DNA from: Protonemura montana
Lineage: Eukaryota > Arthropoda > Insecta > Plecoptera > Nemouridae
DNA: 64,000 nt
Direction of reading: 5' to 3'
Assembly (NCBI GenBank): GCA_947568835.1
Contig: OX387610.1
Location: forward strand, 11,761,001-11,825,000
The notes beneath the pieces are model-generated. The model searched no databases, was not told the DNA's origin, and worked only from the letters and a program-made list of their open reading frames with translations. Below are positions 3,301 to 56,832 of this stretch, in pieces. The translations under genes were made by a program, and so were the position numbers. Position 1 is the stretch's first letter, and the number at the start of each line of letters is the position of its first letter.

Positions 3301-3427
3301 AAACAGGCCGGCACCGGGTTCACCTTCTGCTTCCTAGCCAGACTTTTTCCCCCTCAACCACTAAACATTGTAAAGTACCTAATCAACGACTCGCCTATGA
3401 CGATACGGAATCGCGCAACTAAAAACT

Positions 3428-3743: not shown

Positions 3744-6700
3744 ATGGAGGGTGTCCTAGCACGACTCACGATCGTCGTCGTCTTGCTGGGAAGGGGTGGC
3801 GTCGATGCCGGGCATGCGCTGTTGCCGGGAGAGGCGTTTAACTATCACGGTACGTGGTTTCAGAGTAAGAACCCTTCTGCTGACGCTGGGCGTGCTAGGA
3901 GGTTCTTGGAGATTTCTAATGTAATTTTAAAACCAAACAGGCGGCCATGATTGAGAGACAAAATTCTCCAAAGTTAGGAAAAACAACCCCGTCGGCTGCT
4001 TACAAATATTTGGGTTGGTAAAAACCCTGAGTGTTAATCATCAACAAGAACTTCCCGTGGTGGGTTAATGCCTAAGCTGAGACACGTGATGCCCCCACAT
4101 CTCCCTTGGGGGTAGGGTCCCCGTTAGGCAGGGCGAGATGGGGCAGGGTGGGTTCTTGGCACACTTCAAGCACAGCCATGTTGTGGTTCATACACCACGA
4201 ACATCAGTCAGCGTCAATAGACCAGTGCCACAGGGAGAGCGCCAACACAGTGTGTCAAAGGGACAAGGCTAAGCGGTGGCCGGTCCTTGGTGCTGTTGGA
4301 CAGAAGCAGCCAACACAGTGTGTCAAAGTGACAAGGCTAAGTGGTGGCCGGTTATTAGTGCTGTTGGACAGGAGCATCTAACACAGTGTGTCAAAGGGAC
4401 AAGGCTAAGCGGTGGCCGGTTCTTGGTGTTGTTGGACAGGAGCAGCCAACACAGTGTGTCAAAGGGACAAGGCTAAGCGGTGGCCGGTCCTTGGTGCTGT
4501 TGGACAGGAGCATCTAACACAGTGTGTCAAAGGGACAAGGCTAAGCGGTGGCCGGTTCTTGGTGTTGTTGGACAGGAGCAGCCAACACAGTGTGTCAAAG
4601 TGACAAGGCTTAGCGGTGGCTAGCCCTTGGTGCTGTTGGACAGGAGCAGACAACACAGTTTGTCAAAGGGACAAGGCTAAGCGGTGGCCGGCCCTTGGTG
4701 CTGTTGGACAGGAGCAGCCAACACAGTGTGTCAAAGGGACAAGGCGAAGTGGTGGTCGGTCCTTGGTGCTGTTGGACAGGAGCTGTATGCGTGCTGACAC
4801 CAGGTTCACACTCGACTTCATTCCAGGCACGGGGTACGATGGGGTGATGCTACCTACTGACGGCGCTGTCTACGATGCTGGCTCATACTCGGGAGATGTC
4901 TTGCAAATTGGCGACCATCCAGGGTACACGACTCGGGGAGGACATTACGGGTCTCCGCCCCCCCGAGGGGGGTACCACCATCACCACTACGACGGTGAGG
5001 CTTGGCTGTTGTGCACAGGTTTGGTCCCAGTGAGGAGGAACCAACGAGGCATACACGTATCCATCACTTTAAACACAGTATTAGACTATTTGGCTTGTTT
5101 GACAGTTCTTCTCATTTTAGTCCGCATCACCCAAGCACAACAAAGTTACCAAAAATGGGAACTGTCTTTTTTCCCGAATCTTAGCCATTCACTAATCGCT
5201 CAGGCCTTGACCAAATTTTGGAAACATGAAGTCAATTTGTTGAGCTAAGCTTTGCGTTTCGATTGAGATCTACGTCACTCTAACTGCGCCCCGTAAATTT
5301 AACTTCAGCGCAACGTTTGTATGTACTTGCGGCTCCACACACTTGTAATTACACCTCCGCTGTCTCCCGCCGCAGGACCTCCCTGCGGCCACAGCGAGCA
5401 CCACGACTCTTCTCTCATGGATGCGTTGTTGCACCTGGGCGCGGCCAAGCTGGGGATGGTGGGCGTGGTCAAAGGGGGCGTGGCAAGCCTATTATCTAAG
5501 CTGCCGTGGTTGCTTGTGAAACTGGCTCTCAAGCTGCTTCTTCTCAAGCTGCTCACGCTACCGCTGCTGTTGCCGCTGCTCATTCCGTTGGCCACTGCGT
5601 TTCTACCGCACCTAGCGGATAAGGTTCGAAGTTGGTCTGGTTCTTGCGGTTGTAAAATAAGTCTCGGAAGACTATAGCTGTCTCAAAAATGTATGCCCAA
5701 ACGGGGACCAAGTGTCGGGGGCAACCTATCGCGGGTGTTGCTCTAACTTATTGAGCTACTTGGACACTGGCTTTTTGAGACGATTTTAGTGTATTTGATG
5801 AGAATGACGGATCTCCAAGGAGTAGAACCAAGAGGCTATAAATACTCATTTTCTAGTGACGCTATATCACGTCACAACCTGTCAATCTCGAGTAACTCTA
5901 ATTTGACGTTGGATGCGTTAATTTTTAGAAGAAATCTTATTTAAATTGCAAACGCTTGCAATATGCGGGGTATTTTATTGTTATAGCGTTCATAATAATA
6001 AAATACCCCGCGCACTGCAGAGCTTGCAATTTAAATAAGATTTCATCTAAAAAGAATGGGAAGTTTTTTGATCCATTATTACAAACACTACTTCCGTAAT
6101 ATCACAGCACTAAATTTAATTAAATGTTGCATCGTTTATATTTTGGATTAGTATTTATATCCCTCCTGAGCTTGTATGTGCCGTGCTATGCACAAACTAA
6201 CGCACGGCAACCGTCTTCAGTTCTCGTGCTGCGGCGGAGACGGCGACGACGACGATGGAAACTCGACGCGAAGCTTTGCGCGGATGGCGCATCGAGCGCT
6301 GGCGGCCGACCGATGCTTCGAGCGCGCGGCCTGTGAACTCGGTGCACTCAATTCCCCATCCCAGCATAACAAGCCTGTGTTGTGGTAAGATGAAACAAAA
6401 TATACCTCCTCGGTTCCATTGTCGTTCTGGTACTTATACAGAAGTGCAGCCAGGGCTGCGATTATATAGCTGTCGTGGTTTTGATATTACTCTTTTTGAA
6501 AACAGATTCATAATTGCACCCCTGGCTGAAGTATACTGTATTTTCAAATAACTTTAAGCACTACTTTGGTACTAACTCTTTATTTTCAAGCTATGCTTAG
6601 TAAAAATAATTTTTACTTTAAAAAAAACAATTTCTCTGAAAAAATGAAGCAACTCTGGGACCAATAAAATATGTTTGTCTCAATGCACTGTTTGATTGTA

Positions 6701-7806
6701 TGCAATTCTTGGGAGCTATTTTTTTTTTTTATTATATTGAACCAAGGAAACAAATTTGAATAGGTATATTAATGCAATCCTTGGAAGGGGATAACAGCTC
6801 GTCGAGAAATGAGACGCAAATTTAGCAATTTGGAATTGATGCAAATTAAAAAAAAATTCAATAATACTAAAAAAAATATGAGAATTCCGTAGATACATTC
6901 TGCCCCACTAACCCAGGTTGGTCGAATCCCCTTTCTGTTCAGTCTAGTAAATTTTGAAATGTAATTTTTACTCCAACAATCACAACATTTTCATCAGAGG
7001 CCTAAAGCACCTCCAAAACCCCTTTTACAACCTCGAGGAATATCGCGCCACAACAACACAACACGGACCCCTGAACTTCCACAATGAAGACTAATTATTA
7101 TAAACTATCATATCGTTGAGTGTAGGTTATAGGTAGAGTTTCAACGTCAATGTTACAGTCTCTGCGTGAAAGATGGCAGCCAAATGACCACCTTACCGAC
7201 AAAAATGCAGAGTACCGGAACATCACGTTAAGTGGAGCCTCTGTCGTCTGAATTTTAATTTCGATATTTCTCGTAGGGTAACTCGCTTTTGAGACTTTTC
7301 ATGCTCAAAAAATCTCCATCAATGTTTACCTCAACGATTGATATACACATAACGATATTAAAAAGCGAGTAACCTACGATAAATATCGAAATTAAATTTC
7401 ATACGACAGTGGCTCCACTTAACGTGACGTTCCGGTACTCTGCATTTTTGTCGGTAAGGTAGTCATTTAACAGCCATTTTCACGCAGAGACTGTAACATT
7501 GACGATGTTTCTCTACCTATAACCTACACTCAACGATCATACCATAATTACTATTAAGCTCATACAGATATAATGTACCTGTCCGCAGCAATAAGTAAAC
7601 TGAAACCAACGATTGAACACCGCCAATCCTTCATTTCCAGGGCGCTGAGTGCGATGATGCGGAGCGATGAAGGTGCCGTCAGACTCCGCAGCTACAAGGA
7701 GGCGTACGTCGTCGGCTTGACAGAGCGTACATGTGATCGTGAAGTCTACCCTTGCGATCTCAACGGCCTTGTAAGGACCATGGCCACTCCCGACCGAGAA
7801 CGTTAG
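3744..7806 (+). CDS. Secreted Gly/Tyr/His-rich protein with Leu/Lys hydrophobic segment and Cys-rich C-terminus, 283 aa
   Basis: Five exons: 3744-3849, 4827-4994, 5376-5623, 6221-6384, 7641-7806; all phases agree. I do not recognise a named family. The overall plan (signal peptide, low-complexity linker, Leu/Lys block, paired Cys) resembles arthropod extracellular proteins such as Osiris-like ones, but no defining motif was seen. Visible parts: signal peptide (LTIVVVLLGRGGVDA); a Gly/Tyr/Asp region ending in YHHHHYDG; a long Leu/Lys/Pro block from about residue 112 to 170 with SLLSKLPWLLVKLALK and LLPLLIPLAT; an acidic stretch with a Cys pair (SCCGGDGDDDDGNS); and a C-terminal part with CFERAACELGA and two further Cys. 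Acid and Cys residues flanking an amphipathic block suggest a processed or membrane-active secreted protein (inference). The third donor (AAG/GTTCGA) is weak. Intron 1 holds minisatellite array 2. Confidence 0.78.
4241..4782 (+). repeat. 68-bp minisatellite, array 2 (8 copies), in intron 1 of the secreted-protein gene
   Basis: Same 68-bp monomer as at 2645-3300. The left flank (GACCAGTGCCACAGGG, about 4219) matches the 3' part of the 5S-SINE. The right flank (about 4783-4826) matches the SINE body and runs directly into the exon 2 splice acceptor at 4825-4826. The last monomers share an open frame with exon 2, so intron retention would stay in frame for about 200 bases. Confidence 0.95.
5675..6052 (-). 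mobile_element. tRNA-derived SINE with palindromic tail
   Basis: On the minus strand a tRNA-like head is visible: an A-box-like TAGCTCAATAAGTTAGAGC region, then the family's CACCCGCGATAGG, then a decayed B box. The head is flanked by TGTCTCAAAAA and TTTTTGAGACG. The adjoining 5935-6050 is an inverted repeat of two arms containing CAAACGCTTGCAAT and ATAAAATACCCCGCGC around a short centre. The same arms recur at 10680, 36285, 36610 and 42185. Lies in an intron of the secreted-protein gene. Confidence 0.75.
6995..7110 (+). mobile_element. Short LINE 3'-end fragment (possible)
   Basis: CAAAACCCCTTTTACAACCT and the following bases resemble the 3' coding end of the LINE fragment near 61940, giving a similar peptide (QNPFYNLEEY against QNPFYSLEGY). 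Decayed and too short to classify alone. Confidence 0.35.
7115..7534. mobile_element. Foldback MITE, Mutator-like by target duplication, copy 1
   Basis: A 420-bp palindrome with arms of about 190 bp, starting GTTGAGTGTAGGT and ending with its complement. Flanking 9-mers TATCATATC and GATCATACC match at 7 of 9 positions, consistent with an old 9-bp target-site duplication. A second copy lies at 51145-51569. It has no coding capacity. It sits in the last intron of the secreted-protein gene. Confidence 0.85.
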
Positions 7807-9834
7807 CGATACTCGTTTTCTATATATTTTTTATTTATTTGTAACGTGACAATGGAGTGGATGGAATTGAGGTCTTAAAAATGGGTTTATAGATAGTCAA
7901 AGTCTCAGCGCTATAGTATAATACAGACCGATGAAAATTTTAGTTGCTACTAGGTTTTTTTTGTTATTTCATGTAGATTTATTTCATTCGAGACTGGCGT
8001 ATACTCACTTTATCTTTATTAATGCTTAACCTCAACGACTGATGTTCATGTATCGATATTAAGATTCTTTATTATTGAATCGTAGTTTGCAAAAAAGGCC
8101 GGCAGCAAGCACCATCTGGTGAGGCTATAGAACGATCAACATTAGCGCTAGCACTTGTGACGTATTTTAAACCCAATGGTCTAAGTTAGTATGCCAGGGC
8201 CATGCGGTGGGTGCCTGACATAGGTATGCTCTAATTTATACAATGTAAATACTGATTTGAACTCGAAAACTTAGAACTACGCTCTAAAAAACTGATTTTT
8301 TAAGGCGGTACAATTTTTATATTTATTGGATAGACCATCTTGGAAAAAGGAGTAACTGATGAAACAAACTATGATAGTTAACCGGCCTACAGGTATTGGG
8401 TCCATATTTTTAAATACTAATACTAATGTTAGGAAAGGATAGTCGTCGGTTTGAGAAAGGTAGCTTTGCATTGTTGTCTTTATGGAAATTATCTGCATTC
8501 AAAATTTTGTACTGGGTTCGTGCTAAATAACCAAACTAGACTTTATTCATCTGTGCTAAGTCTAATACCACTTTAAAAATCTTGCCAATACTCCAGATAC
8601 TCAAGCAAATTAATTAAAAACAGACCAACCAACTAACCCATTATTGTCACGCTAAAAATGACCCTTGTTAAAGGCTAAGCCCAAATCTCACAGTAAAATT
8701 AAGATGGTAATTGTGTTTTGGTAGCTATTTATATCTTATTTATGACTTTGATTTAAGACCGGAAAGGAAGACCTTTGCGGTCTGCTATGCTCGTTGACGT
8801 TAGATTTTAGATAATTTAAAAACAAAATTGTAATAAAGCATAATTGTAAGCATTATTATAAGCAATAATAATTGCAAATCTGTTTCAATAAATAAATTAA
8901 AAAAAAAGGCGGTCATGCAAAAAGATTTTCACTGGCAATCACTTTGGGAATTAATTGGACTTGCTCTATGACTCACTCAAACTCCCATTGATCCTATTTT
9001 CAAAGAAAAGTTGGCAACGAGGCAAGGTAACAAGAGACTAGCAACACAGCAATAAAACTAGCAAAACTAGCAACACTCTTGCTCTGAAACCTACTTGTGC
9101 TGCAAAATACCCCACAGGCAGTTCCTGGACCCAGTTCCTCTGGTGTGTATTTATTTACTAAGTCATTACTATCTCTACCAGTGACAAAGCCAACTCGCAA
9201 AAACTTATCTATCCTCGACAAGTGCGCCACGCAAGGCCATTCTTCATCTCCGGTAAGTTGAGCTCCTTATCTCTTTTCTTCTTCACCACAACATCATCCT
9301 GCCTCTTGGCATCCTACTCGCATTGACATCAACGATTGATATAGACATGAGTCTAAAAACCATCATTTTGATACACATGAATCGATATTTATTTAAAGAA
9401 GTTTGTTAACAGAACAGACTCAAACACCATCTGGTGGCCACAACCATTACCACGTGTTGGAGGCTGTAGAAGATTTAAAATTAGCGCTGTGACTCTGTTT
9501 AACGTTAAATCCAATGCTTCCTTTCTTTCCAGTTCTTCTGACAAAAAGATAATAATAATAATAATAATATATGTTTATTGCATGAATAGTTATTAATACA
9601 TGCAAAGAGTCACATTCAATTCAGTGGTATTAAAAATCTATCTCCTAACATCACATTTTGCTGTTCCATGCAGATTGACAAGGAAGGAGCGTGGATTTCG
9701 AGGTTGGCACACGAAACGGCTCGAATTGTGAGAAGAGTAAAACATTTATTAGCCTAGTGCGCCGCAAATCTCTGTACACTTGCAAAGCCCCGCTTACGGA
9801 GACGGGGTGAGGGGAGCTGCTTGCAATTGGTCGC
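7807..9834. other. Intergenic spacer, repeats only
   Basis: AT-rich. It holds short relics of a dispersed repeat (CTCAACGA..TGAT..CATG near 8030 and 9330, and GACATGAGTCTAAAAACCATC at 9346) and an AAT/ATA microsatellite near 9550. No supported gene. It should contain the 3' UTRs of the flanking genes. Confidence 0.4.
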
Positions 9835-12036
9835 TCACATTCGAGAACCCTTTTGCTGAAGCACCTGCAACAATCGATAGCATTTCAATTAGAGGTTATT
9901 TGTGGTAGGATGGCCGGAGAATGACAAATTCTTTTACAAAATAAAGAAAAATCTATTTGAAACTGGGGTTTGGATACAGAGTAAAATTCAACTAATTTAC
10001 CCTCTCAATTACTTAATTATAAAGTGATAATAAAATAATTAGGTACATTCTTTCTTATGTCTTTGAATTGCTCTGAATTGACAGGTAAACATGGCTGTAT
10101 TGCATATCTGTTTTCAAACGCGTTGTTAAAAGTTACACAGTCACAATAAGATGACAAAAACAATGCAAATAAGAAAATTGTCGAGACTCTAATAAGGCAC
10201 AGCAAGGAGTTCAAGAGACTTGCCTATTTCTAGGGAAAACAATACAATTGCACAACACATTTTAGCAACAAATATATTGGTTACCGTTTTGGCATTTAAT
10301 ATATTCGTACAGAGCGAAACAAAAGGGTACAGAAAAGATGAGTGTACTCATTTCGCAGCTGACAAATGCATTGATTAATAAATTAGCATAGCAATTATCT
10401 CCATTGACAAGACCTTTGCAACACCTGGGTTACCTGCACAAGTCTTCTTTGAATAATATGTTTCCTGTATGGCTTATATTTCACCAAACTGTGATTTGTG
10501 ATAGAAATAATGAAGAGGGTTTATTCAGCTTTAAGGTCACTCAAACATAAGATACATTTTTGAACATAATCACATAATTAAAAATTTGCAGAAATTTTGT
10601 ACATTTCTTGATGCCTTTTCTCTTGTTTACTTGATACATTTCTGTTTAAAATTCCCCATATTCTTAGAATTATTAATTTCTATTGGAAAAAAAATAATAA
10701 GAAAAAATACCCTGCGCATTGCAAGCGTTTGCAAATTCAGGTTTTGCATATCCATTTGCTCTACATAAAATGTAGTAGACACTCAACGGTAGTAGGTATC
10801 TGCATTGAAGCCAAATTTGATCCATTTTTGGTTAGTGCATTATAGTTTATAACTTTTTTTTTCTGGCTAGTTTGTTTCCTAATATCTACCTACTAAGGTT
10901 GACGTAAGCGGACTTCATGTATGTTTTATTTCATCTTGACGCCTAACAAGTAGTTCACTTATCTTATTGGAAAAATTATTTCTAGATTTTGGAAAAAAGT
11001 GGCTTTGTATAAAGTATTTCATACCTTGGCACGATCGGTGGGCTCTGTCTCCTTGGCGTTGAGAGCGGTGGCGCCGTATTCGCGTGACACCACACAAAGG
11101 AATTCCGCGTGGTCTTCGTTTCCATAATTGTACTGGCTGCCGATGTTTACCAGCTGCCACGAAACCGTATACAAACATTAGCGCAATCATACATAAACCC
11201 TTAAAGCTATGTAGCAAGCTGTAATAGTCCTCAGAAATAATGGTTGCGTTCTGGAGTCTTACCTGCTCAAATTTCCATCCATCTGACATAGTAGACACCA
11301 TTTGTGTGAGCTCGTCCTCGTGACACTGTAGTACGCGGAACACATGCTTCTTTGCATTTTGTGGTCTGTCGTCTCGTATTGAGATTCGCTCCTTGACAAG
11401 CCGTATCAGCTCTGTCACATTGTAGAATTCAGCTTCTTCTAAAATGCCTGCCCCACAACAAATAGCTTGTAACATTATTTCTGCTATTGGAAAAATACAT
11501 ACAGGGAATTCGACTGGTTAATAGGTACCAACCTTCTTCTGCAAGGTCCCTGTTAATGACAAGCTTGCCATGTCGGAGGTAGTTTACGACAGGACTGAAG
11601 TATGTCGGATCTCTGTCGATCATGTACGCACCCGTCGCATCCTGAAGAAAAACAAAATGAACTCTCCCGCTAGAAGGCGATGTTTTCTTCTCAAAGTTTC
11701 AAAGATTGAGCCCAAGCAGAAAAAGTTTCCCAGATAGACGATATTGATCAGATAGGCATTATTAAAAGCTTGGAACAAGTAATTTGGTGAAATAAGGATT
11801 GGGGGCAGTTGCATGACATTTGTTGTGGGCTGGTCCAAATGTCAACCAACCTTGTCAGTGTCTAGTTCTGAGTCTTCTTGGCAAAGGCGGTAGAGAAACG
11901 AGTTAGGATCTCTAGAAAGGGTTGTTTTGGTAGTTAAAAAGTAGGTCCCGCCGACGTTTAGTCGAACCCATTGCTTGCTTTCCCGTTTTGTTCTATTCTG
12001 TTCAGGAATACAGGTTGTTTCCTTGTGTTCCGCCAT
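9835..12036 (-). CDS. KCTD5: BTB/POZ adaptor KCTD5 / insomniac, 212 aa
   Basis: Substrate adaptor for CUL3 ubiquitin ligase, related to human KCTD2/5/17 and Drosophila insomniac. Five exons: 12036-11851, 11641-11533, 11447-11263, 11153-11025, 9864-9835. The BTB/T1 domain (about residues 20-115) opens with [16 protein letters not shown] and carries [20 protein letters not shown] and [14 protein letters not shown]. The conserved C-terminal domain has [16 protein letters not shown] and [18 protein letters not shown]. The last exon encodes only VLQQKGSRM plus stop, about 1.2 kb from the previous exon; it matches the family's end (ILQERGSRM), so I am confident of it. Length equals the insect orthologue. 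The start ATG lies about 540 bases from the divergent GID4 start. Confidence 0.95.
10680..10750. repeat. Tail fragment of the tRNA-derived SINE family
   Basis: AAAATACCCTGCGCATTGCA and GCGTTTGCAAATTC match the arms of the palindromic tail at 5935-6050. Lies in the last intron of KCTD5. Confidence 0.5.
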
Positions 12037-12576
12037 TTTAAAACTGATGGGGTCACTGACGTTTCACAAAATACCAACATAATAAAAAAAAACTAGTCTT
12101 TGAGTTAATTGAGTTATAACTTGAATTAAAATAAACAGCAAAGGGATAGAAGATGCAAAAGGAAAATACATTAACTGCTAAGAGATAAATGTCTGAATTC
12201 TTTATCAGCCAGCAAGAAGCAGATACAAGCGAAGCGAATTTGTAGATCAATCAATCATGGGATCAAAGTTATCAGATGGGTCTATTATTCGCACGGCTAC
12301 CATTATTGAACGTTTAAACTGACTTTTGTTTATTAAATGTTGTGTTTAACTTAAAAAGCGTGACTTTAATAAATTCTGACCTAACTCTTAACATTAATTT
12401 GTTTAGAATGGAAATGCGTTTTTAAAGCCGAGTAGAACAGTTCGTGGTAATATTTGAGTACCATAAGTTTGCAACAGTGGACGTCAGACGAAGGAAGATA
12501 ACGAACTCGTCAAGGAAGGAGTTGAAGGATTTCACTTTAGGTCGACAGCTTTTCACGGAATTCCGGTAAATGTGAG
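12037..12576. promoter_or_regulatory. Shared upstream region of KCTD5 and GID4
   Basis: 540 bases separate two divergent start codons, so both promoters must lie here. No TATA box or recognisable motif was identified. Bidirectional activity is inferred from the layout. Confidence 0.5.
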
Positions 12577-14096
12577 ATGCCCGTGAAGGTGCAGATTGTC
12601 CCGCCACCACCAGCGAACTCCAAACAACCCGGAATTACCAAATCTTTGCTTTACAACGGTTCCAAGTTCCAGGGACACCAAAAGTCCAAAGGCAACAGCT
12701 ACGAGGTCGAAGTAGTCTTGCAGGTTAGCTGTTAATTATTTTACTCTTCTCTTCTTTTCCGGGTTTAATTTAGGATTTTCAGTATTCAATTGACTTCAAT
12801 TGCCTTTTGGTTGCAGCACGTAGACGAGGAAAACGCTTACTTGTGTGGCTATCTAAAAATCAAAGGACTGACAGAAGAATTCCCGACTCTGACAACTTTC
12901 TTCGACGGGGAAATTATTAGCCGCAAATATCCATTTCTGACTAGGAAGTGGGACGCAGATGAAGACGTAGACAAAAAACATTGGGTGAGTTTCCTGTTTC
13001 ATCCACTGTTCGTTAGCTTAAAAATATGTTCTTGAATTCCATTTAACTTAATCAATGCATTTATTTCAGAGCAAATTTGACTCATTCTGCGGCTACGCTA
13101 AGACTTTCAACGGAGACTCGTTTGACTTTGCAGCATTAGCCGCCACAGACTTTGTGTTTATGCGCTGGAAGGAACATTTCTTAGTACCAGATCACACAAT
13201 TAAAGTATGTTATTTGAAAAGGCATAGAAGTTGTAGACAATTATTGCGGTTGTTTAAAATTTTGCCTGTTTTCAGGACATCAACGGCGCATCGTTTGCCG
13301 GATTTTACTATATTTGCTTCCACAAATCGGCGGCTACCATCGAGGGTTACTATTATCATCGTAGTTCTGAGTGGTGAGATGAGCTATGTTTCTGACTAGA
13401 TACTCTAGTTGCATTACTATCAATTAACCATTTTTTAATGCAATCCTTTTGGCTACTTATGTAGTTTGCTCAACTAGATCACTCTTAGTCACTGTCAAGA
13501 GGACAAATATCCTGCTTTCTTCCTGAATGTGTGAACGCATATTGGAATTGTTATAGAAGATGTCTTTATTTCTCTTTAACAATAATTCTGAATTTATAAT
13601 CTAAGTATATATGAGAATTTTGACATTACAAAAATGGATTTATTAGAGAAAACCAGGACAACTATGGAACTTAACACGTTTCATCCCCCCCCCCCCCCCC
13701 CCCCCCATCTAATGGACGTACTTGACCGCTAGTGCCCTGCCAAACATTCTGAAAGGTTATACTGGCCCAAGTTACACAACTTGACTTGTGCATCATTTGT
13801 GTAAAGATGCCCAATGAGTTTTCGCGTGTTATTGATGTCACGGTCCAATTGAAACCCAATGTTAATCATAGGAAATTACGTTAAGGCGGGACAATCGACA
13901 ATTTTTACACAATCACCCACCAGAATAGTTTAGGTTTTCCAAAAAAGCCAAGAATTTGTATAAAAATCACACAATTTGAGCCCTGTGCCGCCTAGCAAAA
14001 TTATCGGCCCTGACCAAATGTATTTTCTGCAGGTACCAATCGTTAACATTGCAACACGTCCCCGAACACAGCATCCAGATCTACGAATTCAGGTGA
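12577..14096 (+). CDS. GID4: GID4, substrate receptor of the CTLH/GID ubiquitin ligase, 203 aa
   Basis: Recognises Pro/N-degrons for the CTLH (GID) E3 complex; the yeast homologue Vid24 targets gluconeogenic enzymes. Five exons: 12577-12723, 12817-12984, 13070-13204, 13276-13373, 14033-14096; all phases agree and a Trp codon is split over the last intron. Nearly every signature is present: [108 protein letters not shown] and the terminal [13 protein letters not shown]. This covers the beta-barrel that binds the degron. The protein lacks the long disordered N-terminus of the human form. A poly(A) signal lies at 14195-14200. Confidence 0.96.
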
Positions 14097-14194
14097 GACT
14101 CATCGGCATCGACCATCACGAACCAACCATCGCAACGTCGGAGATTCCATCGCCGCGACCGGACTATCTGCTAGCCTAGCCCTTGTCCGTTATA

Positions 14195-14200
14195 AATAAA
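14195..14200 (+). terminator. Poly(A) signal of GID4
   Basis: AATAAA about 100 bases past the GID4 stop codon. Confidence 0.75.
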
Positions 14201-14407
14201 GCTATTTTAATGTTACGCAAACCAGTTGGTTTTTATTTATTGCCTGCCCAAACCTATGTCCCATGATACTTGGTAAGGGTCTGTTTAGCCAGTTCTATAC
14301 ACCTTCGATCTAGCCTTATGTGATATTTGTTCATTATCACTTCTTGCCGTGTGGTGGATGGCTACACCGCTGTCTTGCAAACAGTTTGGTGAACAGTTTT
14401 AATCTTA

Positions 14408-14665
14408 AGAAAAACTTTTTGAACTGGGGTTTGAATGCTAAGTAAAGGGCTACTAAATTTCCCAACGTTTCGCAACATATACTAGTTACTTCTTCAGAGG
14501 TTTGAGCAGTAATTGTTATAATTTTATGTGGTTCTTTTGTTATCGGAAAATCTTCAGGACTGCTTAAACCTCTGAAGAAGTAACTAGTATATGTTGCGAA
14601 ACGTCGGGAAATTTAGTTGCCCTTTACTTAGCATTCAAAACCCAGTTCAAATAGTTTTTCTTAAA
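14408..14665. mobile_element. Foldback element, family with AACTGGGTTTTGAATGCTAAG ends
   Basis: Two inverted arms of about 100 bp around a short centre. Both carry the complements of AATGCTAAGTAAA, AAATTTCCCAACG and ACTAGTTACTTCTTCAGAGG. Relatives occur at 49545-49745 (same layout), 44005-44180 and 52210-52310, usually followed by CAAGTAGACATGAGTCTAAA. No coding capacity. Confidence 0.7.
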
Positions 14666-14669
14666 ACTA

Positions 14670-15290
14670 CTGCTAAGGATAAATCAAGTAGACATGAGTC
14701 TAAAAACCATCAGTTTTAATCTTAATGGTATGTATGCGTGGTGGATGGGGACTTTGAGCATGTGGTGAACATACAGCACTAGCAAATAAGTCGCCTTTTT
14801 GGCATCTTGAGTAACATTGAAGACCAGTGATCAGATTGTTAAGATTGGCAGTTTCATCAAATCAGTCCTTGATATCTCTACTCTACATGTTGTGGTGAAG
14901 AAGCATAGAGAGGAAAATGCCACTTATTGGCGAAGAAGATTCGCATGGTGCACTTGACGAGAAATTTCTAGAAAACCTAAAATATGATTTGTAGCGTGTT
15001 CAAAAGTGACAGTTGGTTACTTTAAATTTAAATTATATTGCTCAAAGAGTATAACAGTGATTGGCTATTCAGTATCCAGCAAACAAGAAGGGAAATTTAA
15101 TAAGGATTGTTGAACTCACCTAGATGGGGAAAATAGTTATCTGCTCACTGTAGCGATGAAAATGACTACCTGGAAAGAACTGCTAGTGTGTATTCCACAA
15201 CTCGCACCCATACACACAACTGGATAGGAGTTGAAATGAACGATGGGTATCCATAATTTGAAATTACCTTGCCAATTTGGCACAGTGAAA
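14670..15290. other. Spacer, no gene seen
   Basis: AT-rich sequence. Only the end of the foldback family (GACATGAGTCTAAAAACCATC near 14691) is recognisable. Confidence 0.4.
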
Positions 15291-15299
15291 CTCAAAAAG

Positions 15300-16720
15300 G
15301 GAAGTGGAAAGTTAGGGGAAATTGAAAAAAAACACTGTGTAAAAACCAGGAGTGTTTAATTGTAATAGTAAATAGATTAGATGCGCCATGGTGGGTACAC
15401 ACGTAGCCACGGCTAAAATGCTGGAGGGAGGGGCCAATAAATAACATTTGGACGGCCAATAGCTGCCATGCAATCTCTCCGCACAAACAGAGTCCTCACG
15501 ACGCAAGCACTCGCGACACTTGCACATTCCGTGCGCTTCCAGTTTATCGCACCTTCTTTCGCGGCGGTAGCCAAACGATTACTTACGAGACTTTCTACAC
15601 AGTTCAAGAATCGAGACGATCGTATTCTTAGATTTCTTACATTCAGTGGTGCTGTGCTTGGCGTTGTAGAAACAGTCGACAGAGCGACGACACTGTGATA
15701 AAAACAACCTGTGGCATTTCACAAATGTATTGGTAGACATATTATCAGCTCGGACTATGGGCGTTCGTTCACAGCTTGAGATGCCCGCTGTACTCGTCTT
15801 TACAAATATCACCTTTCATTCGACAGAGGGCAATCGGTACCAAGAAGAGGCTTTGTACACTGGATCCAGGTAAAGGGAAATATTTCCTTTGGTATTTTAC
15901 CTCTGGTAGAGTTACGACAAAAGGTTCAGAGGTTTCGTACATAGTTTGACCAATAAGTGTTGGATGAGATTCAGTGCAGCCTTTTTGATTAAAAAATACA
16001 ATGCCAGTTAGGAGCATGTCTGGCTCACAAATTTGCAAACCAATTGCATGTAAATATAAATTTTATAAAACATGATTCAGAAATTGGGTCAATTAAAATT
16101 TATCTGAGATGCTGAGTATGGACTGATTTCACACGAAGAATCTGTCGAGATTTGGTTCTGTAGGATACCAATCAAAATCAGATTCATCTAGCAACTTCCG
16201 ATTATCAAGGTGGCACTGTCTCTCCCTAACAGTGTGCATTTGGGTTTTGGATTATTAACAAATATCGTTGGGAATATCCCTCGATATTCCTGTCCTTGCA
16301 TTTCCATTCCACTTCCTTCCTCCTAGTCCAATCACATTCCAACAAAACCAACAGTCACAACTAGTCACAACCAAGGGTGAAACTGATAACAGCTGACCAG
16401 ATTCTGGATTGCTCGAGGCAATGTAGATGGACAGCTTTGGATCCAGTGTCGACGTATGCTCAAATTCGCAATGCTCGACATCTTTCATTGTCTCTTTGTT
16501 GCAGAAGCCGCTCAGCTGGAAGTTCCTCAGAGGAAACGTGGGCCAAATCCTCTGTCCGTTGCCTCGATAGAGTTTGGTATCCACGCCGCTGTGCTTGAAA
16601 TGAACAAAGGCGTATTTCCTTAGCCTTGAATTCGGGGTGGGAGCGGAATTTCCAAGTGGTAGATCCCAAGTGGGACTCAAGCCGATCTAGCAGATAGTGA
16701 TGTTGGTGTTCGCACTTCAA
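15300..16720 (-). other. Possible Cys-rich multi-exon gene or pseudogene, downstream of RAB40
   Basis: Several minus-strand blocks look coding but were not joined into one clean model. Around 16690-16390 a frame with strong codon bias reads LRKYAFVHFKHSGVDTKLY and FQLSGFCNKETMKDVEHCEF, ending at a GT. Around 16030-15890 lies CEPDMLLTGIVFFNQKGC to VVTLPE/GT. Around 15863-15815 an exon-like CTKPLLGTDCPLSNER sits between AG and GT in matching phase. Around 15770-15640 the frame reads CERTPIVRADN, FVKCHRLFLSQCRRSVDC. The many evenly spaced Cys suggest an extracellular protein. No family recognised. It could instead be the RAB40 3' UTR with chance open frames. Confidence 0.3.
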
Positions 16721-16837
16721 GGACTACCAGATAAAATAGCCGACCACATAGTCTTCTAAGCCCAAAAGAGTGACGGTTTCTATGGCGCTTTCGAAGCTGA
16801 ATTCGCCGGCACCGAATCCTGGGCGTCTGAAGCGAGC

Positions 16838-19525
16838 TTAGCTGATGCGGCAAGAGTTGCGCCCGGCGCAGCTTGACCCTGATTGGACAGGGGGCGTTGT
16901 ATCAGGTGCACGATGCGACAGGTAGCGGAGTTGCGTGCCCGAGCACGTGAGAGCGTACGACTTGAGGTGCTGCTTGACTGTTGTCGGTAACGGCAGGGCG
17001 TCGATGCCATACACGGTCGTTCTGGCGACGATAGCACGGCACGCCAGCTCTTGAAGGCTCAGGACTGTTGGGGCAAAGGGCAGAGGGTTTAGCGCCAAAA
17101 AGGAGGACTTTTAAAATAATATAATTGGGTAGGCAGGTTACGTCAGTGCCAACTATGGTGCAACTGTCTTTGCAAAAGTTGCTACCTATAGGTACAAAAT
17201 TGACCACTTTAGTGGTCAAAAATGGGAGTTGTTCCTAGATAAGGTCACCATCATTTCAAGATTGAAGAAATTTAATTTCGTCGTTTCTTAAAGATTACTT
17301 TCAAACACTCAATGAATCTTTACACTCTAATACACAGATACACATGTTTTGTTATTTTGAAACGTAATTATTCAATCATAGAGGTTTATTAAAAAGGACA
17401 GACCCAAGCTTCATCGAGTGACCACCACTGTTACCATGAGTTGCCGACTCATTTGCTCGGCAGAAAGTTTAACATTAGTGCAGCTACTCTAACTAACTAT
17501 AAGTATGCAATGATAGTATTAAAATTTAAAAGCCATATTAGTGATAAACCAACGTTTCTTAACATGTACCAGTTACTTTATCAAGGTTGAAAGCTCGACT
17601 GACTTGACGTCCCGTAACAAAAGAATCAACAACCAACTTGCGAAGACTATCTAGCTAAAAATATAGCTTCCTGCTTCTCCTATTGCTTTTCATTTTCCTT
17701 TCCTGATTTACCCTCCTCTCTTGTTATGTTCCTGTTTTTGACAGTGGATGTAGAGCCGTGATTGTCCATTTACTCTAGGTGTGCATTAAAAGGTCATCCA
17801 TTCCTCACCTTGCATGTTGTAATGTCTGAACTCCACTCACTCAGGAAAAAAAGCTTTAGGCTAAAATATTATTAACCAGTATGACATTCCCTCCTGTTGT
17901 AAAATGTACAATAGTATTGACTTTAAGGCAATCCCACCGTAGCAGAACTTTTCTTTACATTCCATTTAAGTCTGGACCGCTCCAATGAACCATTCTCTCC
18001 TAAAATTCATAAACCTTCAGATAAAAAACTGGCCATGTGCATGGCCAGTGTCATTCTTCATCAACTCATTGCACAGTTGTTGAGTTCCCTCCAAACCCTT
18101 TTTCTCGAACTAACCGTTACCCACTCAATACTGTCAATCCACATTTGTTCACACAACTGTGATACTTACAAACCTGTCCTAACCAAATTAGTTTGTAGAG
18201 CACCTTACCTAACTGACAAGGAGTTCAAATCAATGCTTTGAAATTACAGAGAAATGTTTAAAGTCGTGTCAAAAACTTTTGTCAAGTGGGTTTTGTCAAA
18301 ACTAGTGCTTAGGTTAGATAAAGCAGACTCAAGACTAAAAGATGTAAATATAAAGGCAGAAATTAATAAAAAATGTAACATAATTAACAGATAGTCGATA
18401 ACAATCAATGTCATATTCAAGAAGTAAGTAAATATGTTTGTTGTATTATGTAGCAATACCAAGTGGCAAACAATACAGATTATACCAATTGTACATAGAT
18501 ACATTCGTATGCACACACTCAACTCACCCTTATTTGGCCGCCAGAGCCTCTCGAGTCCGTTCCGCTGCAGAGCCATGCGACTGAGCTCGCGAAAACTCTC
18601 CCGCACGTTGAAGTCGCACAGTGGACTGACCTCGAAGAACGTCATGCGGTTCTTGGCGGCGTAGGCTTCGGCCTCGCGGGCGCCGACTTGCCGCTTGTAC
18701 GCGAGGTGAAGCCGGTTGCCAACGAGCACCTTGGGCACTCCAGGCGCGTGCTGCCGAAACGAGGGCTAGGTGTTACGAGATTTCGATAACTCTTTTTGTT
18801 CTAAGCAACCTTTTTAAGTAGAAACACTTGGAGAAAGAACATTGGACAGTCAGCATGTATGTTGCATGGCTTGGCAAATAAATCTGTCACTAAAATAACT
18901 GATAATTAGAAACAAAGCTGCATAACTGAATGCTGGACATCCTAATTAGAATAATATCTAATTTCATGGTGTAAATATGTTGACTCTGAATTTTCAAGCC
19001 TATAAATGAGCCTCACCTCTTCAACCTCCTTAAGCCAACGTCCGATGCCATCGAAGCTCCACTTATTTGTGATGTCGTAGACAAGAAGTATGCCTTGTGC
19101 ACCACGAGAGTACGACCGGATTATGGTGCAGAAACGGCCCTGCCCCGACGTGTCCCACAGTTGTAGCTTTACGCGTTTCCCATCCAGGAGTATCGTAGTA
19201 GTCTTGTATGCTATTAAAACATTCCTTATTAAGAGTGGCTTCTTTTGGAAAGTCTTAAATGATAGGCACTTTTTCGGAAAATGTTAACAAAAGAACACGA
19301 AAGCCGGGGGCGGGAAATACAGCAGGTAGTTGCTTAACATTGAAATTTGGTGGTTGTGACTTTTCTTACACAAAATATAAACTTACCACTGCCACTGCAG
19401 AAGGGAGACTCCGTTGAGCCATCTTCTAGCCCGCTCAGAATCTCCTGCTTGCCGACATCACTGTCCCCAACCAACAAGAACTTGAGAAGGTAGTCATATT
19501 GTTTGGGCAAAGGCTCGATAGCCAT
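16838..19525 (-). CDS. RAB40: RAB40, SOCS-box small GTPase, 260 aa
   Basis: Atypical Rab that serves as substrate receptor for CUL5/Elongin ubiquitin ligases at membranes. Four exons: 19525-19387, 19210-19017, 18750-18528, 17064-16838. The GTPase fold shows the Rab40 variants: P-loop GDSDVGKQE (Gln where most Rabs have Ser/Thr after GK), [25 protein letters not shown], and [12 protein letters not shown] in place of NKxD. The SOCS box fills the start of exon 4: [13 protein letters not shown] for Elongin binding, then IDALPLP, the CUL5-type box. The protein ends NSCRIS, where CRIS is a CAAX prenylation motif like the human CKIS. Human paralogues are about 280 aa. Its start lies about 1 kb from divergent HADHB. 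Confidence 0.96.
17065..18527 (-). other. RAB40 intron 3
   Basis: Mostly unstructured. Near 17530-17590 and 18270-18335 are relics of the foldback family (AACCAACGTTTCTTAACATG and GGGTTTTGTCAAAACTAGTG). No nested gene was seen. Confidence 0.5.
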
Positions 19526-20516
19526 CTCCCTTTCGCCGCGACCGTTGGCATAATATCGGGGGGCTAAGTGCGACTGCGATCACCCGAAACGATTCCTAAA
19601 CGATTTCATTTTCCCTTACATACTTTACAGTTTACACAAACTAGATGGCCTACTTTTGTGTACAAAACAAATTTTGTACTAATGCTGACAGACGACGGCA
19701 GCCATCTTTATGTAGCTGTCACATGACAGTTGAGCTTAGGAAGCTTACTTCACGCAGAGCTCAACTGATAGGAAAGTTAACTGAGCGCGGGTAAGTAAAT
19801 GCGGGTAAATTGAAAGAAGTTGTTGCCAAAAATCGTACAGAAATACAGTTTGCTCTGTCTAAAACGCAATGATGAAGCTAACCTCTAAGCTAATACAACC
19901 CGTATTCTTTTCTCTAAGTTAATATTGTCTAATACTTAGGATCGAAAGGCTGATGTTAGTTAAAATAGCTGGTTACAATAGATGCGGAGTTTTGCTAAAT
20001 ACAATGTTTCGTCTGTTTTCCTTGTTCAAAATTAAAATTAAATGTTGCCGTGATCAATTCTATAAAAACAATCATCTTATTAACAACGAGTAAGTATATT
20101 GTAACAAAGTGTAATAACTGCAAACAATAAAGATTATACAATGAAAAAAAATCAATAATTTTGATCATGTTGAAGTCTGCAATCTCCTGCAAAATGCGAT
20201 CTCTCTTTACAGTCATAGTCAGTAGATCTTAGAAGATTTATGGACTGGAGCCGGTTCACTCACTTCGCTTTTCACTTCATTCACTCTCTTTCACCCAACA
20301 GTGCCACAGAGCCCGTTGGTGTTATGTTAACAGCATGTCATTAAATACATCAAATCAAGCAACCAATACATTTTTTATATGCTTTCATCCTGTTTGCTGG
20401 AGTTGGATGAACAATTCACTACTAGTCAGTTGCTCAAGCTATCAGCGGGAAAAGCGAACAGATTTATTCCCTATCTGTTGACATTATCATTCCATTACGT
20501 CACGGTCTCTTCAATC
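19526..20516. promoter_or_regulatory. Shared upstream region of RAB40 and HADHB
   Basis: About 990 bases between divergent start codons. No TATA box or clear motif was found; promoters are inferred from position. Confidence 0.4.
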
Positions 20517-23500
20517 ATGGCTGCTCATCTAGCAAAAAGTTTTGGTAAACTACCTACAAATGTTAATATTTCTACTGTAAAGTATGGTAAGTACTTCATA
20601 GCTTGCAGTAAGTAAAGATAAATAAAGTTTTAACACAAAACAATTTAATATGTGTGTTAGTAGGTGTCTCTACTTAATATTTGGCATTTTACTAGTCTTG
20701 GGTGCACACTGACAACCTTACTTATGCTTACATAAGTGCCTAGGGTCAAGTGGACGGACTTTGCTTTACCTCTATCAGCAAAGTATCTATCACCTCTATA
20801 AACCCTTTTCCTTGAATTGTTCCTTGAATTGAATGGTTCAATGTGATTCTTGTAAATTACGAGTTAATGTTTTTGCAGGCGTTGTCCGCGGTCTGTCCAC
20901 TACGAGCACACACTGTGCGCTTAAACCATCCAAATGCAAAGACAAGACGGGCAAGAACATCGTTTTTGTTGATGCCGTGCGAACACCATTCCTCCTTTCC
21001 GGAACACAGTACTCAAAGCTGATGCCACATGACCTTGCCAGGCATTCACTAGTGTAAGTCCTGTTAATACCAGCTCTTGTTCAAACATGCCAACAAGTGG
21101 ATTTTTATTATTTCTATTTAAGAAGGAACCATAATATATTTTTACCTCTAAAGAAGCCTGTAAAGTTCTTATTGGTTGTTTGACTTTCATACAGTGAGCT
21201 GGTGCGCAAGACTGGAATCCCAAAAGAACTTATCGACTATATCATCTACGGCTCGGTGATCCAGGAAGTGAAGACGAGCAACATCGGCCGTGAAGCCGCG
21301 CTCAGTGCCGGTTTCTCCGACAAAACCCCGGCACACACTGTCACCATGGCTTGCATCAGCTCCAATGTCGCTATGACTACAGGTAAGGTCGTTGCTGAGG
21401 TGTTTCTTTACCCGGCCCCTGTTCAATGTCCTCTGGCCTTGGACATTCAAGACATTTGTGATGAATTATGCACTGTTAATCAGCAAGGACACACAGTTAA
21501 TACCGACAGAAAAGTTATTAACTCTTTTGTTAAGTCCAATGTTGTTGTCCAATTTTATACCATCCAGGTTAGGAATCAGAGGTAAAGTATGTGGACATCA
21601 AAGTAAATGTGTTCAAACACACATAGAACGACTTCGGTCCCGTTCAATTTAAGACCCTCCTAACCACAAATCGTTCCAGGTGTCGGCTTGATTGCCTCTG
21701 GCACCTATGACATTATCGTCGCGGGCGGCGTCGAGTTCATGTCCGACGTTCCAATCCGTCACTCGCGGCCAATGCGTAGCTTGATGCTGCGAGCCAACCG
21801 CGCCAAGTCAATCGGCCAGAAGCTGTCGTTGCTGGCGACGATTCGACCGAACTTCTTCGCTCCAGAGGTATGCACACCTTCGTAGATGGTCGGGTTGGCT
21901 TCATCATCAGCTTGTAATTCACCGATAGTCAAAAGATCAGTGCCACAAGAACAGCGGTAACACAGTGTGTCGAAGAGACGAGGCTAAGCGGTGGCCAGTC
22001 CTTGGTGCTGTTGGACAGGAGCAGCCAACACAGTGTGTCAAAGGGACAAGACTAAGCGGTGGCCGGTGCTTGGTGCTGTTGGATAGGAGCAGCCAACACA
22101 GTGTGTCAAAGGGACAAGGCTAAGCGGTGACCGGTCCTTGGTGCTGTTGGATAGGAGCAGCCAACACAGTGTGTCAGAGGGACAAGGCTAAGCGGTGGCC
22201 GGTCCGTGTTGCTGTTGGACATGAGCAGCCAACACAGTGTGTCAAACAGACAAGGCTAAGCGGTGACCGGTTCTTGGTGCTGTTGGATAGGAGCAGCCAA
22301 CACAGTGTGTCAAACAGACAAGGCTAAGCGGTGGTTGGTCCTTGGTGCTGTTGGACAGGAGCAAGCTGAATGCTGGCCCTGGGTTTACTCTCGTTGTTTT
22401 TCTTGTAGCTGCCTGCGGTGGCTGAGTTCAGCTCGGGCGAGACAATGGGGCACTCTGGCGACCGGCTTGCCGCGGCATTCAACATAACTCGCAAAGAGCA
22501 GGACGACTATGCGATGCGGTCTCACTGCCTGGCGCAGGCCGCGCAGGAGAAGGGATACTTCACGGACCTCGTGCCAATGAAGGGTAGGCACAGCTCGGGT
22601 TTGCTTAAGTTTCCTACCAAAGTGTTTGGTGTGTTGGAAACATCAGTCCTCGTAAGATCACCGAAGTTAAGCAACACTGCTCTGGATCCAGTATGAGATA
22701 GGTGAAAACCGAACGGTTTGGCATGTTGTAATCACCAAAGTTGAGACACAAAATTTAAGTATCCAATACATTTTAACCAGTAGCATAGCTATTTTGCCAG
22801 TAACAAATTAAACTTGACAAATGCCCATTTATTTGCAATCCTTAAGGCTTGCCTTTATTTATTTATTTTTATTTTGTTAGTTTATTGTTCTAGATTGAAA
22901 GTTGCATAGTTAATTGTTATGTCAATGCTATATACATGCTAAGGATACCTGATGTTTTATAATTATTGGTTCACGTTCTTTTTGATTTCCATTTTCTGTC
23001 GCACATTTTTCCACACTACAAATAAATACCAACTTTTTGTTGTTGTTTTGTTGTTAGTACCGGGCATCGACAAGACTGTGGACAAAGACAACGGCATCCG
23101 TGTTTCTACGCCAGAGCAGTTGGCTAAACTGAAGCCAGCGTTTGTCAAGCCTCAAGGCACGGTCACCGCGGCCAACGCATCGTTCCTCGTAAGTTTGGCG
23201 CACAAACAAGAAATTAAATTTTGTTTTTCTTCGGAACTTTTGCTGCCTTCAAGGTCTACCCACAGTTGAATTGCAATACCCTCAAGCATTGTGCACAAGG
23301 ATTTTAAAACTAATAGAATCAGATGGGAATGCATTCAATCGATACAAGTAAACATATATGGCTATAAAGTAGCTGCACTTAACAACGATCTGAAGGGTAT
23401 AGAGACTTCAGCTCACGGTGGAATACACAGAGGTCGACTTCACATCGTAATTCCTTTCTTTCAGAATCACTTCAGAATATAAAAAAATCTACGACCTGTG

Positions 23501-26500
23501 TCTATCTTATATAGGATGCAGCTTACTAAGATTAAAAAAGATGTTTGAGGCAGATGGAGAGAGTTGGATGGCGTTTCATCCACACCGGCTTGCTCTTGCA
23601 AAGAAGCAGATAGATGAGAGAATTTAGAAGGTGACTTGACCGAAACAACTTCGCATCTATTGCCACCAGCTATTTCAGCCTCGGAAAGTTGCGTTCCTTC
23701 TTTCCTCTACCCCATTAAAATCTCACAAAGCGTGTCCCTTAAAGTTTAAACACTTCCCCCTGTCGCTGACTTCGTGCCTGTGTTTTTCGCAGACTGATGG
23801 AGCTTCTGCGTGCCTCATCATGACCGAAGCCAAGGCCAAGGAGCTCGGACTCAAGCCCAAGCTTTACCTGCGCGACTTTGTCTACGTTTCCCAAGACCCC
23901 GTCGACCAGCTACTGCTTGGGTAGGTGCACAAACGGAGAGATAAGGGGACGAGTTTGTACCGCTCAGGATCATATTGGATATGGTGTCGGCCTAAATGTG
24001 TAACAGAAACTTGATGTCTTTGCAAGATCGTAAATAATTGCCGGCTGATAAACCGCGAGTCATAAATTCGTACACAAAGTCGTGCCAGTCGGAGTTATGT
24101 CCAACAGGTTGAATTTGGGGTACAGGAACGTTACCACTGTAAGTTTACTAGAAATAGCACTGCCAGACGAGGTTTCAAATCGTGACGCCTCATAAGGCAA
24201 TGTTTATATCATTCAACGGCAAGACCAAAAAAGTAAACATACGTTAAAGTGTTTCGGAAATTGAGAATAATTCCTTTATTGATTTGTAATGTGCCAAAGG
24301 GCTGGGATAACGAGTATGTTGATTGGTAAAGTAAAGGGAGAGTACGGTACTTACCGAGCGGGAGAGGCAGGTCGTGGAGATTCTTTGTTTAAAGTTTCGG
24401 CTGTTGCCTTTATCTCTGGAGAAAAGAGACTCAGAGAAGAGTCTCTTCTCTCCAGTGATAAAGGCAACACCTTACTAGATTTCATGCTTTCTTATCTAGT
24501 TCCATTTCTGTACTTGTTGATTTAACTCTTTTCAAACTTTGTGGCTAAGTATTGTTTTCAGCGTTTTGAAATTTAAATGAAAGCAAAACCATTTATATCT
24601 GATTTCAAGTGTGGCAATTTGTTTAAAAGCACTGCCTCCTTGATTTGAACTTGAATTTCAAGCCTCGTTCCGCAGATCTATTCCTAGTGTATCAAAAGCG
24701 GGAACTCTAAATGAGAAGGCCTGGTTTACAAATTTACAAGTATTAACCGAAATCGGCCAAAGCTGTAGTCCTCAGGGAATTTGACTTTCAAGCCCCGGAG
24801 CGTCGAAACCTTGACAGGATTCCTTGGTTTCCAGTCCTGCGTATGCGATCCCGAAAGTGCTGCAGCGTGCCGGCCTCACTATGTCTGACGTCGACGTGTG
24901 GGAGATGCACGAGGCATTCGCCGGACAGATTCTCGCCAACATGAAGGCGATGGACTCTGACTGGTTCGCCAAGACGTACATGGGACGCACCGAGAGAGTC
25001 GGCTTGCCGCAGCTCGAGAAGTTCAACAACTGGGGCGGTTCGCTGAGTATCGGCCATCCCTTCGCTGCCACAGGTGACTTAAAGGCTTAGACTGTCTTGC
25101 AGGTGTAGTGCCTTGAGGCTTAGAGGCTTAAAAATTGACTTAGAGTGACAAAGCGCTCTGACTCGGAGCTGGTGCACGCCAGTCGAAAATGCAATTAGAG
25201 TGAATTAGAGATTGTGAGCCAGATTTTTAATGGCATGTTAAGTAATTATCAGACTATAATCAATTAAAACATACCTTCTGATTGGCTGTTGCCAAGCGAA
25301 TAGGAAATTAGCGGAACTTAACGTACTTAACGTGACACTGAAAAGCTGGGACTCGAGACGTTTTGTGATCATTTCAAATGATATTTTTAGAATATATTAT
25401 TGTTTGGGAAAAAAATTAGATTTACCTTCTAAGTTTACTAATGGGAGTCCGAGTGCTGAAAGGCGGGTATACGTATATTGAAAAGGTGGTTGCAAAAGAT
25501 GCTGAGAGTTGTATCTCACGCAACCAGGTTTTTCAACCTTGCTAAGTTGTGTTCCTTCTTTCCTTTTAGCCTTCTCCATTATGCTATCTTAGTTTGACAG
25601 AATATGGGAAGACAGCTAAGATTTTTAAATATATTAAAATATTAAAATGTTTTAAATATTTTTAAATAGTTTTTAGTAATTAAATATCTCCTGTCAATTT
25701 TGGAAACACTTACACTTGTTTCTATTGGGTTAAGCACAAATTGAAGAAACAAAATCAGTTTTATTTTTTACATTGTGTGGATAGTTCAGTACATCAAAGG
25801 AAGACAACCAACTTAAAATATTGGTTATTTGCACAAGTAGGTACCATCTGTAATTAGTCATAAATACCAGGATAGAAGATTGCCCCTCTAATCTGCTGTA
25901 GGTCTTGCAGACTTGTTGCATTGTAAAAGTGGAGACGTTGAAATGTTTGTGACAACGTGCATTGCTTGCAGGCGTCCGATTGGCCAGCCATGCAGCCAAT
26001 CGGCTGATCCGAGAGGACGGACAGTATGCTTGCATCGCTGCTTGTGCAGCTGGTGGACAGGTAGGTTGCCGCAGGATGGCACGAAGCTTTGCTAATGCAC
26101 AGTTATCGTGGCCAGTTGATATTTAGCGTCAACAAAAAGCTGAGAGCTGGTGGCAGCAATTTATTATAATGCCTAGAGGTGGTCAGTTGCATTTTCTAAC
26201 AACTCCAGTCTGGCTTTGTTTAATAGCCTAGGTTTTTATGCCTTGGTTTAATAACTAGAACAGACAAAAAATTGTGGGAATAATGAAAATTGCGCTCGAG
26301 ACACCAAGAATTTTGATATTTTTTATTTTTGACATGGGTTAGGCATAAAATATGTTGTATGTGTTTTCTAATAGCCAGAGTTTGAAAACAAATAGCAAAT
26401 CACATGTCACAAGACCTCATGGAAGACTGGAAATGTATTTTGGAAAAGAGATAAAAGGAGCTGATAAGTGTAGCACCATAGAATAAAACCTGGAGATGCA

Positions 26501-44771: not shown

Positions 44772-55942
<11,171 letters not shown>

Positions 55943-56724: not shown

Positions 56725-56832
56725 ATTGACCGAACGGTTCTGCGTGCTGTACACACCGGTACCTACTCATGAGTCATGAGATCACCGAAGTTAAGTACTG
56801 CGCTAGGTCAGATATCGATTGGGTGACCATTG
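56725..56832 (+). mobile_element. 5S-SINE head fragment
   Basis: GACCGAACGGTTCTGCGTGC, GATCACCGAAGTTAAGTACT and ATTGGGTGACCATTG on the plus strand; the body is missing and an inverted copy follows at once. Confidence 0.85.

Follow-up and report, generated by a model that had tools for sequence, protein, structure and literature searches.

We analyzed a 64,000-nt stretch of contig OX387610.1 from the insect Protonemura montana (GCA_947568835.1, positions 11,761,001–11,825,000 of the forward strand; hereafter the window), in which a short interspersed element (SINE) with a 5S rRNA-like head and a minisatellite with a 68-bp period recur in introns, in several cases just upstream of an acceptor (3' splice site). 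Genes were named by similarity, and exon junctions were taken from sequence and protein similarity. The genes that matter most here are gene 1, whose secreted-looking product had no Pfam match; HADHB, which scored 685 bits against the human trifunctional protein beta; and the NTH1-like gene NTH1b. SINE or array pieces also occur in a NUP37-like WD gene, named by similarity with an approximate query, and in IRE1, named by its kinase and Ribonuc_2-5A domains. We ran Tandem Repeats Finder on the window for arrays and used Rfam for 5S-like heads; the nhmmer query was the two full SINE copies. Feature coordinates are collected in Table 1.

Counts below refer to 35 annotated introns. The KCTD-like (∼9.7–11.8 kb) and Rab-like (∼16.8–19.6 kb) genes, the first introns of IRE1 and the IRE1 51.9–51.0 step are outside this set. 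An acceptor matrix was built from 29 reference acceptors (six of the 35 were set aside, including the IRE1 53.8–53.2 intron, which stays in the counts of 35), and 1091 internal intronic AGs served as the comparison set. NUP37 intron 1 was included in the acceptor ranking, distance, and matrix analyses; one NUP37 step is not in the base intron annotation.

Three 5S rRNA-like heads matched Rfam RF00001, at 35247–35367 and 57150–57270 on the minus strand and at 46641–46759 on the plus strand. The two full-length copies, S1 and S2, are 88% identical across 447 columns, and each is flanked by an 11-bp target-site duplication. An inverted copy at 57.2 kb has a duplication of just 7 bp, and no target-site duplication of at least 7 bp was found at S3 or at a copy at 43 kb. 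S2 lies amid additional SINE pieces (56729–57578), part of them inverted, which suggests nested insertion. Two further 5S-like SINE head pieces stand in tandem in HADHB intron 5 (22616–22736, plus strand), 32 nt past the donor. The family resembles the lepidopteran 5S-derived SINEs HaSE3, PxSE4, and PxSE5 (PMC3272025; PMC8010984), which share a 5S-like head, an unrelated body, a 3' tail of short repeats, and abundance in introns; the likeness is one of description, not of sequence.

A sequence-only reading of the window had described a pyrimidine run followed by CTAG in intact SINE copies. This motif is present and of acceptor grade in S1 and S2, and it is lost in the other two of the four body-bearing copies, which read CTAT (43 kb) and CTTG (57.4 kb). 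The CTAG of S1 scored 7.0, higher than 11 of the 29 reference acceptors and equalled by 16 of the 1091 internal AGs; that of S2 scored 5.1, higher than seven references and equalled by 35 internal AGs (median of the real acceptors, 8.6). By this measure, the SINE body has a usable acceptor-like site in the sense orientation, though not in each copy.

The minisatellite forms four arrays, all on the plus strand. The word GTGCTGTTGGACAGGAG occurred 34 times in the window at three or fewer mismatches, against a maximum of two over 100 shuffles. Each 68-bp unit is a piece of SINE body (model about 247–292) fused to a piece of SINE tail. SINE tail-like sequence precedes all four arrays, with left arms that match SINE tail or body and start at differing SINE positions. 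The next stretch of SINE body, from GACAGGAG on, follows arrays 1, 2, and 3; array 4 terminates within a unit, 163 nt upstream of its acceptor. An acceptor stands at the end of arrays 2 and 3 only. Array 1 had been said to end in the same module without an exon, and the module is indeed there. Its CTAG is not a shared end, however, and the idea of CTAG as a common right terminus was dropped, since the right arm of array 1 weakly runs on beyond it; this copy scored 0.36, under all 29 reference acceptors. The best direct repeats at array edges were 5–7 bp long, and a search of the flanks found no target-site duplication of at least 8 bp at the array elements. In the passages on lepidopteran SINEs, the word "tandem" is absent from both PMC8010984 and PMC3272025, and "minisatellite" from the former, unlike the arrays seen here. 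Exact patterns for the array unit and SINE body had no match in prokaryote and viral contig collections, a result of little weight given those collections. In NUP37-like intron 4, array 4 begins ∼15 nt past the donor and is followed by a short, AT-rich palindromic stretch.

The resemblance to the SINE extends past the arrays toward the acceptors of gene 1 intron 1 and HADHB intron 4. With nhmmer, the SINE matched HADHB at 22323–22394 (E = 1.2e-7), gene 1 at 4746–4828 (E = 1.8e-7), and array 1 at 3275–3343 (E = 3.3e-7), and all three matches cross from the last array unit into the following sequence. We also scored the sequence that follows GACAGGAG, without the array, against the SINE module; it measures 43 nt in gene 1 and 47 nt in HADHB. 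Each stretch reached a local score of 14, as did only four of 16,664 controls of 43 nt and two of 16,702 controls of 28 nt; minus its last 16 nt, gene 1 was weaker, with a score of 11 that 58 of 16,664 or 26 of 16,702 controls reached. When the 35 annotated acceptors were ranked by likeness to the whole module, gene 1 came first and HADHB second with three of the four module copies; with the fourth copy gene 1 was again first and HADHB 12th. The SINE resemblance at these two introns is real and beyond chance. The description of a 68-bp array followed by a SINE-body stretch at both acceptors was borne out by the nhmmer search, the array-free scoring, and the acceptor ranking, and the junctions lie where they had been placed (AG at 4825–4826 in gene 1; HADHB intron 4 ending at 22408, in phase 0 between APE and LPAV).

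Whether the AG itself came with the element was then considered gene by gene, the sequence-only reading having equated the SINE pyrimidine-AG with the acceptor in both. In gene 1 the element may plausibly have supplied the acceptor, because the alignment to S1 runs through the AG; the last 16 nt alone gave mixed ranks (2, 14, 10, and 1 of 35 with the four module copies), and we regard the gene 1 acceptor as probably SINE-derived. The equation does not carry over to HADHB, where the SINE match stops 9–16 nt short of exon 5 and the remaining bases are indistinguishable from an ordinary pyrimidine tract. Because its last 16 nt rank 12, 12, 25, and 27 of 35, the HADHB acceptor is not demonstrably of SINE origin, and it was probably not taken over from the element. 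In the SINE, gene 1, and HADHB, a GGGTTT-like word lies at a similar distance from the AG. SINE-like arms and array together span about 21901–22399 of HADHB intron 4, some 499 of its 541 nt, in line with the claim that this intron is nearly all SINE-derived; gene 1 intron 1 has more than 300 nt of non-SINE sequence at its 5' end. We set aside a candidate duplication that paired CTTCGTAG, close to the donor of HADHB intron 4, with CTTGTAG at its acceptor, because no exact repeat there exceeds 5 bp.

The clearest insertion lies in a gene that had been overlooked. NTH1b intron 3 (34914–36877, minus strand) has S1 sitting at its acceptor, flanked by the 11-bp duplication TCGCCAGGCGT at 35368–35378 and 34910–34920, which spans CAG|GCGT. 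The insertion has left the old pyrimidine tract on the upstream side of the SINE. With a score of 9.9, the former acceptor exceeds 20 of the 29 references; the AG that now adjoins the exon scores −6.5, under all 29, and is equalled or outscored by 696 of the 1091 internal AGs. If splicing used the former acceptor, the computed reading frame would enter the SINE and meet a stop after 19 codons. Human NTHL1 has a splice position at c.709+1 (PMC6651865), and NTH1b intron 3 lies at that position by residue numbering; a hand comparison placed it also at the position of intron 3 of the paralogue NTH1a, there without a SINE. The NTH1b case is evidently a SINE insertion at an existing intron. Its closest parallel is the merle SINE of canine PMEL17, which sits at an intron-exon boundary and is flanked by a 15-bp duplication that holds the original acceptor (PMC7349775); in NTH1b the duplication likewise holds the original acceptor and is 11 bp long. 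The merle insert changes which acceptor is usable, and the NTH1b insert may do likewise. The merle SINE, however, is tRNA-derived and antisense, and its poly(T) takes the place of the pyrimidine tract (PMC7349775), whereas the NTH1b SINE is 5S-derived and in sense, with a tail that lacks a pyrimidine tract; gene 1 and HADHB, unlike merle, hold arrays without a duplication. The two NTH1-like genes lie side by side (29794–32130 and 34660–38520, minus strand). NTH1a falls below Pfam cut-offs (HhH-GPD, 20.3 vs. 26.2 bits), and its VDTHV motif seems to be missing; the corresponding parts of NTH1b are intact.

We compared the HADHB introns with the human junctions documented in the literature (c.209/210, 254/255, 811/812, and 1389/1390), with human numbering taken from the alignment with the window gene. 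Introns 2 and 9 match c.254/255 and c.1389/1390 exactly, and intron 4 corresponds to human c.630/631. Human exon 8 contains a primer at c.547–567 and exon 9 contains c.693, so the exon 8/9 junction must fall within c.568–693. HADHB intron 4 is likely, though not proven, to be old.

We think it likely that the SINE and the minisatellite derived from it invaded existing introns and sometimes took over the acceptor. This reading draws on the array anatomy, the SINE homology at both introns, and the ordinary last 16 nt of HADHB; on the exact human counterparts of HADHB introns 2 and 9; and on NTH1b, with its duplication on the acceptor and an intron position shared with human NTHL1 and NTH1a. The acceptor-like SINE CTAG and the observation that moth introns frequently carry SINEs (PMC8010984) point the same way. 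In HADHB intron 4, the element would have filled or replaced most of the old intron and halted shy of the original pyrimidine tract and AG. The acceptor of gene 1 is now probably the element's pyrimidine-AG, and the sequence between element and exon would have been lost. In NTH1b, a whole SINE went in at the acceptor with an 11-bp duplication that spans it; one AG stays upstream, together with the original pyrimidine tract, and the other, past the SINE tail, adjoins the exon. Read this way, the window offers a well-marked case of introns being invaded, and in NTH1b a SINE has landed cleanly on an acceptor.

Several observations weigh against intron invasion as we picture it. The introns of HADHB are not wholly static, as intron 5 is 6 nt off human c.811/812 and human c.209/210 has no intron counterpart in the window gene. 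The human exon 8/9 junction is probably at c.630/631, a position that the passages on HADHB in the literature, including those of PMC7118068, do not state. HADHB intron 4 keeps only ∼33 nt before and 9–16 nt after its SINE-like part. Because this remainder is shorter than the shortest other annotated intron (83 nt), insertion alone into an intact old intron does not suffice, and loss or replacement is needed. Finally, the SINE-bearing introns carry their pieces nearer to acceptors than random placement would put them, at 33 nt or less in five of eight.

A stronger version holds that old introns were rebuilt in both genes, with both acceptors (pyrimidine tract, AG, and perhaps branch point) coming from the SINE module as a portable acceptor. 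The first and second places in most of the whole-module rankings, SINE CTAG scores within the range of real acceptors, and the comparable distance between the GGGTTT-like word and the AG speak for it. We nevertheless judge it unlikely, given the unremarkable ranks of the last 16 nt of HADHB, the loss of CTAG in half of the body-bearing SINE copies, and the low score of the right copy at array 1.

The distances to acceptors raise a second alternative, in which the SINE machinery or selection favors sites just upstream of exons. SINE or array pieces occur in eight of the 35 introns, at 14 nt from the acceptor in gene 1, 14 and 321 nt in HADHB introns 4 and 5, 11 nt in NTH1b, 27 and 163 nt in the NUP37-like gene, and 16 (antisense) and 368 nt in IRE1. 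Random placement would put a mean of 1.6 of these introns within the cut-off of 33 nt (p = 0.0025; 1.5 and p = 0.0005 with splice-site margins), and a Fisher combination gave p = 0.027. The latter rose to 0.17 when NTH1b was left out, however, and both the element ends and the 33-nt cut-off were set by hand after looking at the data. SINE-bearing introns moreover offer little free space (39 nt in HADHB intron 4), and three of the eight have their pieces far from the acceptor. We treat acceptor proximity as a lead only, and an actual preference for acceptors seems to us somewhat less probable still than intron rebuilding in both genes.

The boldest combination of these ideas is that the SINE body and its derived minisatellite act as a portable 3' splice site, whose sense pyrimidine-CTAG repeatedly replaced acceptors and whose new copies favor acceptors, with exon boundaries unchanged. 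We consider this doubtful, more so than either idea taken separately. If it were true, mobile elements could rebuild the 3' ends of old introns while leaving the protein unchanged, a step between exonization and intron gain. In SINE/Alu exonization, latent splice sites in SINEs can be recruited, and a sense SINE can carry an acceptor (PMC7349775). The latent SINE splice site is common to both situations; here the module would form the 3' end of an existing intron, and no SINE-derived exon is claimed.

The sequence-only reading had proposed, with introners as a comparison, an intron gained from or rebuilt by a mobile element. An introner-like gain would mean that a SINE or array element entered an exon with no intron in it and was removed by splicing from the outset. 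Introners are recognized by similarity reaching near both splice boundaries (PMC9860276). As with introners, a repeated element shows similarity close to splice boundaries here, and HADHB intron 4, SINE-like over most of its length and near both splice sites, comes closest; in it alone is similarity to both boundaries partly seen. Introners, however, make introns at new sites, in many copies that reach both boundaries and often with target-site duplications (PMC9860276), which the window does not show: the array edges have only their short direct repeats, the left arms start at differing SINE positions in the four arrays, and just two arrays end at an acceptor. HADHB intron 4 falls in the interval where the human junction must be, in NTH1b the same SINE lies at an old intron, and more than 300 nt of gene 1 intron 1 are other sequence. 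With two of the four documented human HADHB junctions matched exactly, no duplication of at least 8 bp in the flanks searched, and an ordinary HADHB acceptor, intron gain is not supported; among the biological readings it has the least backing and is very improbable. Least credible of all is a coincidence of pyrimidine-rich sequence, since, although every acceptor is pyrimidine-rich and nothing sets the last 16 nt of HADHB apart, most of the likeness falls upstream of the pyrimidine run and immediately after the array, which largely refutes chance for the module, though not for the final tract and AG of HADHB.

Table 1. Repeat elements, duplications, and gene parts in the window (positions count from its first letter)
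Feature	Start	End	Strand	Basis or remark
Array 1 left arm, SINE body and tail similarity; holds second copy of acceptor-like module	2541	2610	+	nhmmer, alignment
Array 1, 68-bp units, upstream of gene 1	2646	3300	+	Tandem Repeats Finder
Array 1 right module, without known exon	3301	3343	+	nhmmer, alignment
Gene 1 coding exon 1, signal-peptide-like start	3744	3849	+	
Array 2 left arm, SINE tail similarity	4212	4256	+	nhmmer, alignment
Array 2, inside gene 1 intron 1	4237	4783	+	Tandem Repeats Finder
SINE-body module ending in gene 1 acceptor	4784	4826	+	nhmmer, acceptor ranking, alignment, score test
Gene 1 exon 2	4827	4994	+	
HADHB exon 4	21680	21867	+	protein similarity
HADHB intron 4	21868	22408	+	
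Array 3 left arm, SINE tail similarity	21901	21972	+	nhmmer, alignment
Array 3, inside HADHB intron 4	21959	22363	+	Tandem Repeats Finder
SINE-body module in HADHB intron 4	22362	22399	+	nhmmer, acceptor ranking, alignment, score test
HADHB exon 5	22409	22583	+	protein similarity
3' copy of NTH1b duplication, holds AG now adjoining exon	34910	34920	-	
SINE S1, full-length, on NTH1b intron 3 acceptor	34925	35367	-	Rfam, nhmmer, duplication
5' copy of NTH1b duplication, holds former acceptor	35368	35378	-	
Piece of SINE tail in NUP37-like intron 3 (40203–40611), 27 nt short of the acceptor	40521	40584	+	nhmmer
Array 4, inside NUP37-like intron 4 (40832–41702)	40881	41539	+	right module absent
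SINE S3, antisense in IRE1 intron, 16 nt from acceptor	46640	46909	+	Rfam, nhmmer
SINE S2, full-length, reference copy, 11-bp target-site duplication	56828	57270	-	Rfam, nhmmer, duplication

Finally, we noted three other inverted repeats in the window. The longest, at 7112–7537, has arms (7112–7280 and 7370–7537) that are 90%–93% complementary and is perhaps a foldback element. A nested inverted repeat with arms of 35 and 28 nt lies at 5922–6053, and HADHB intron 7 contains an inverted repeat of 31 nt with a loop of 6 nt (24402–24469).

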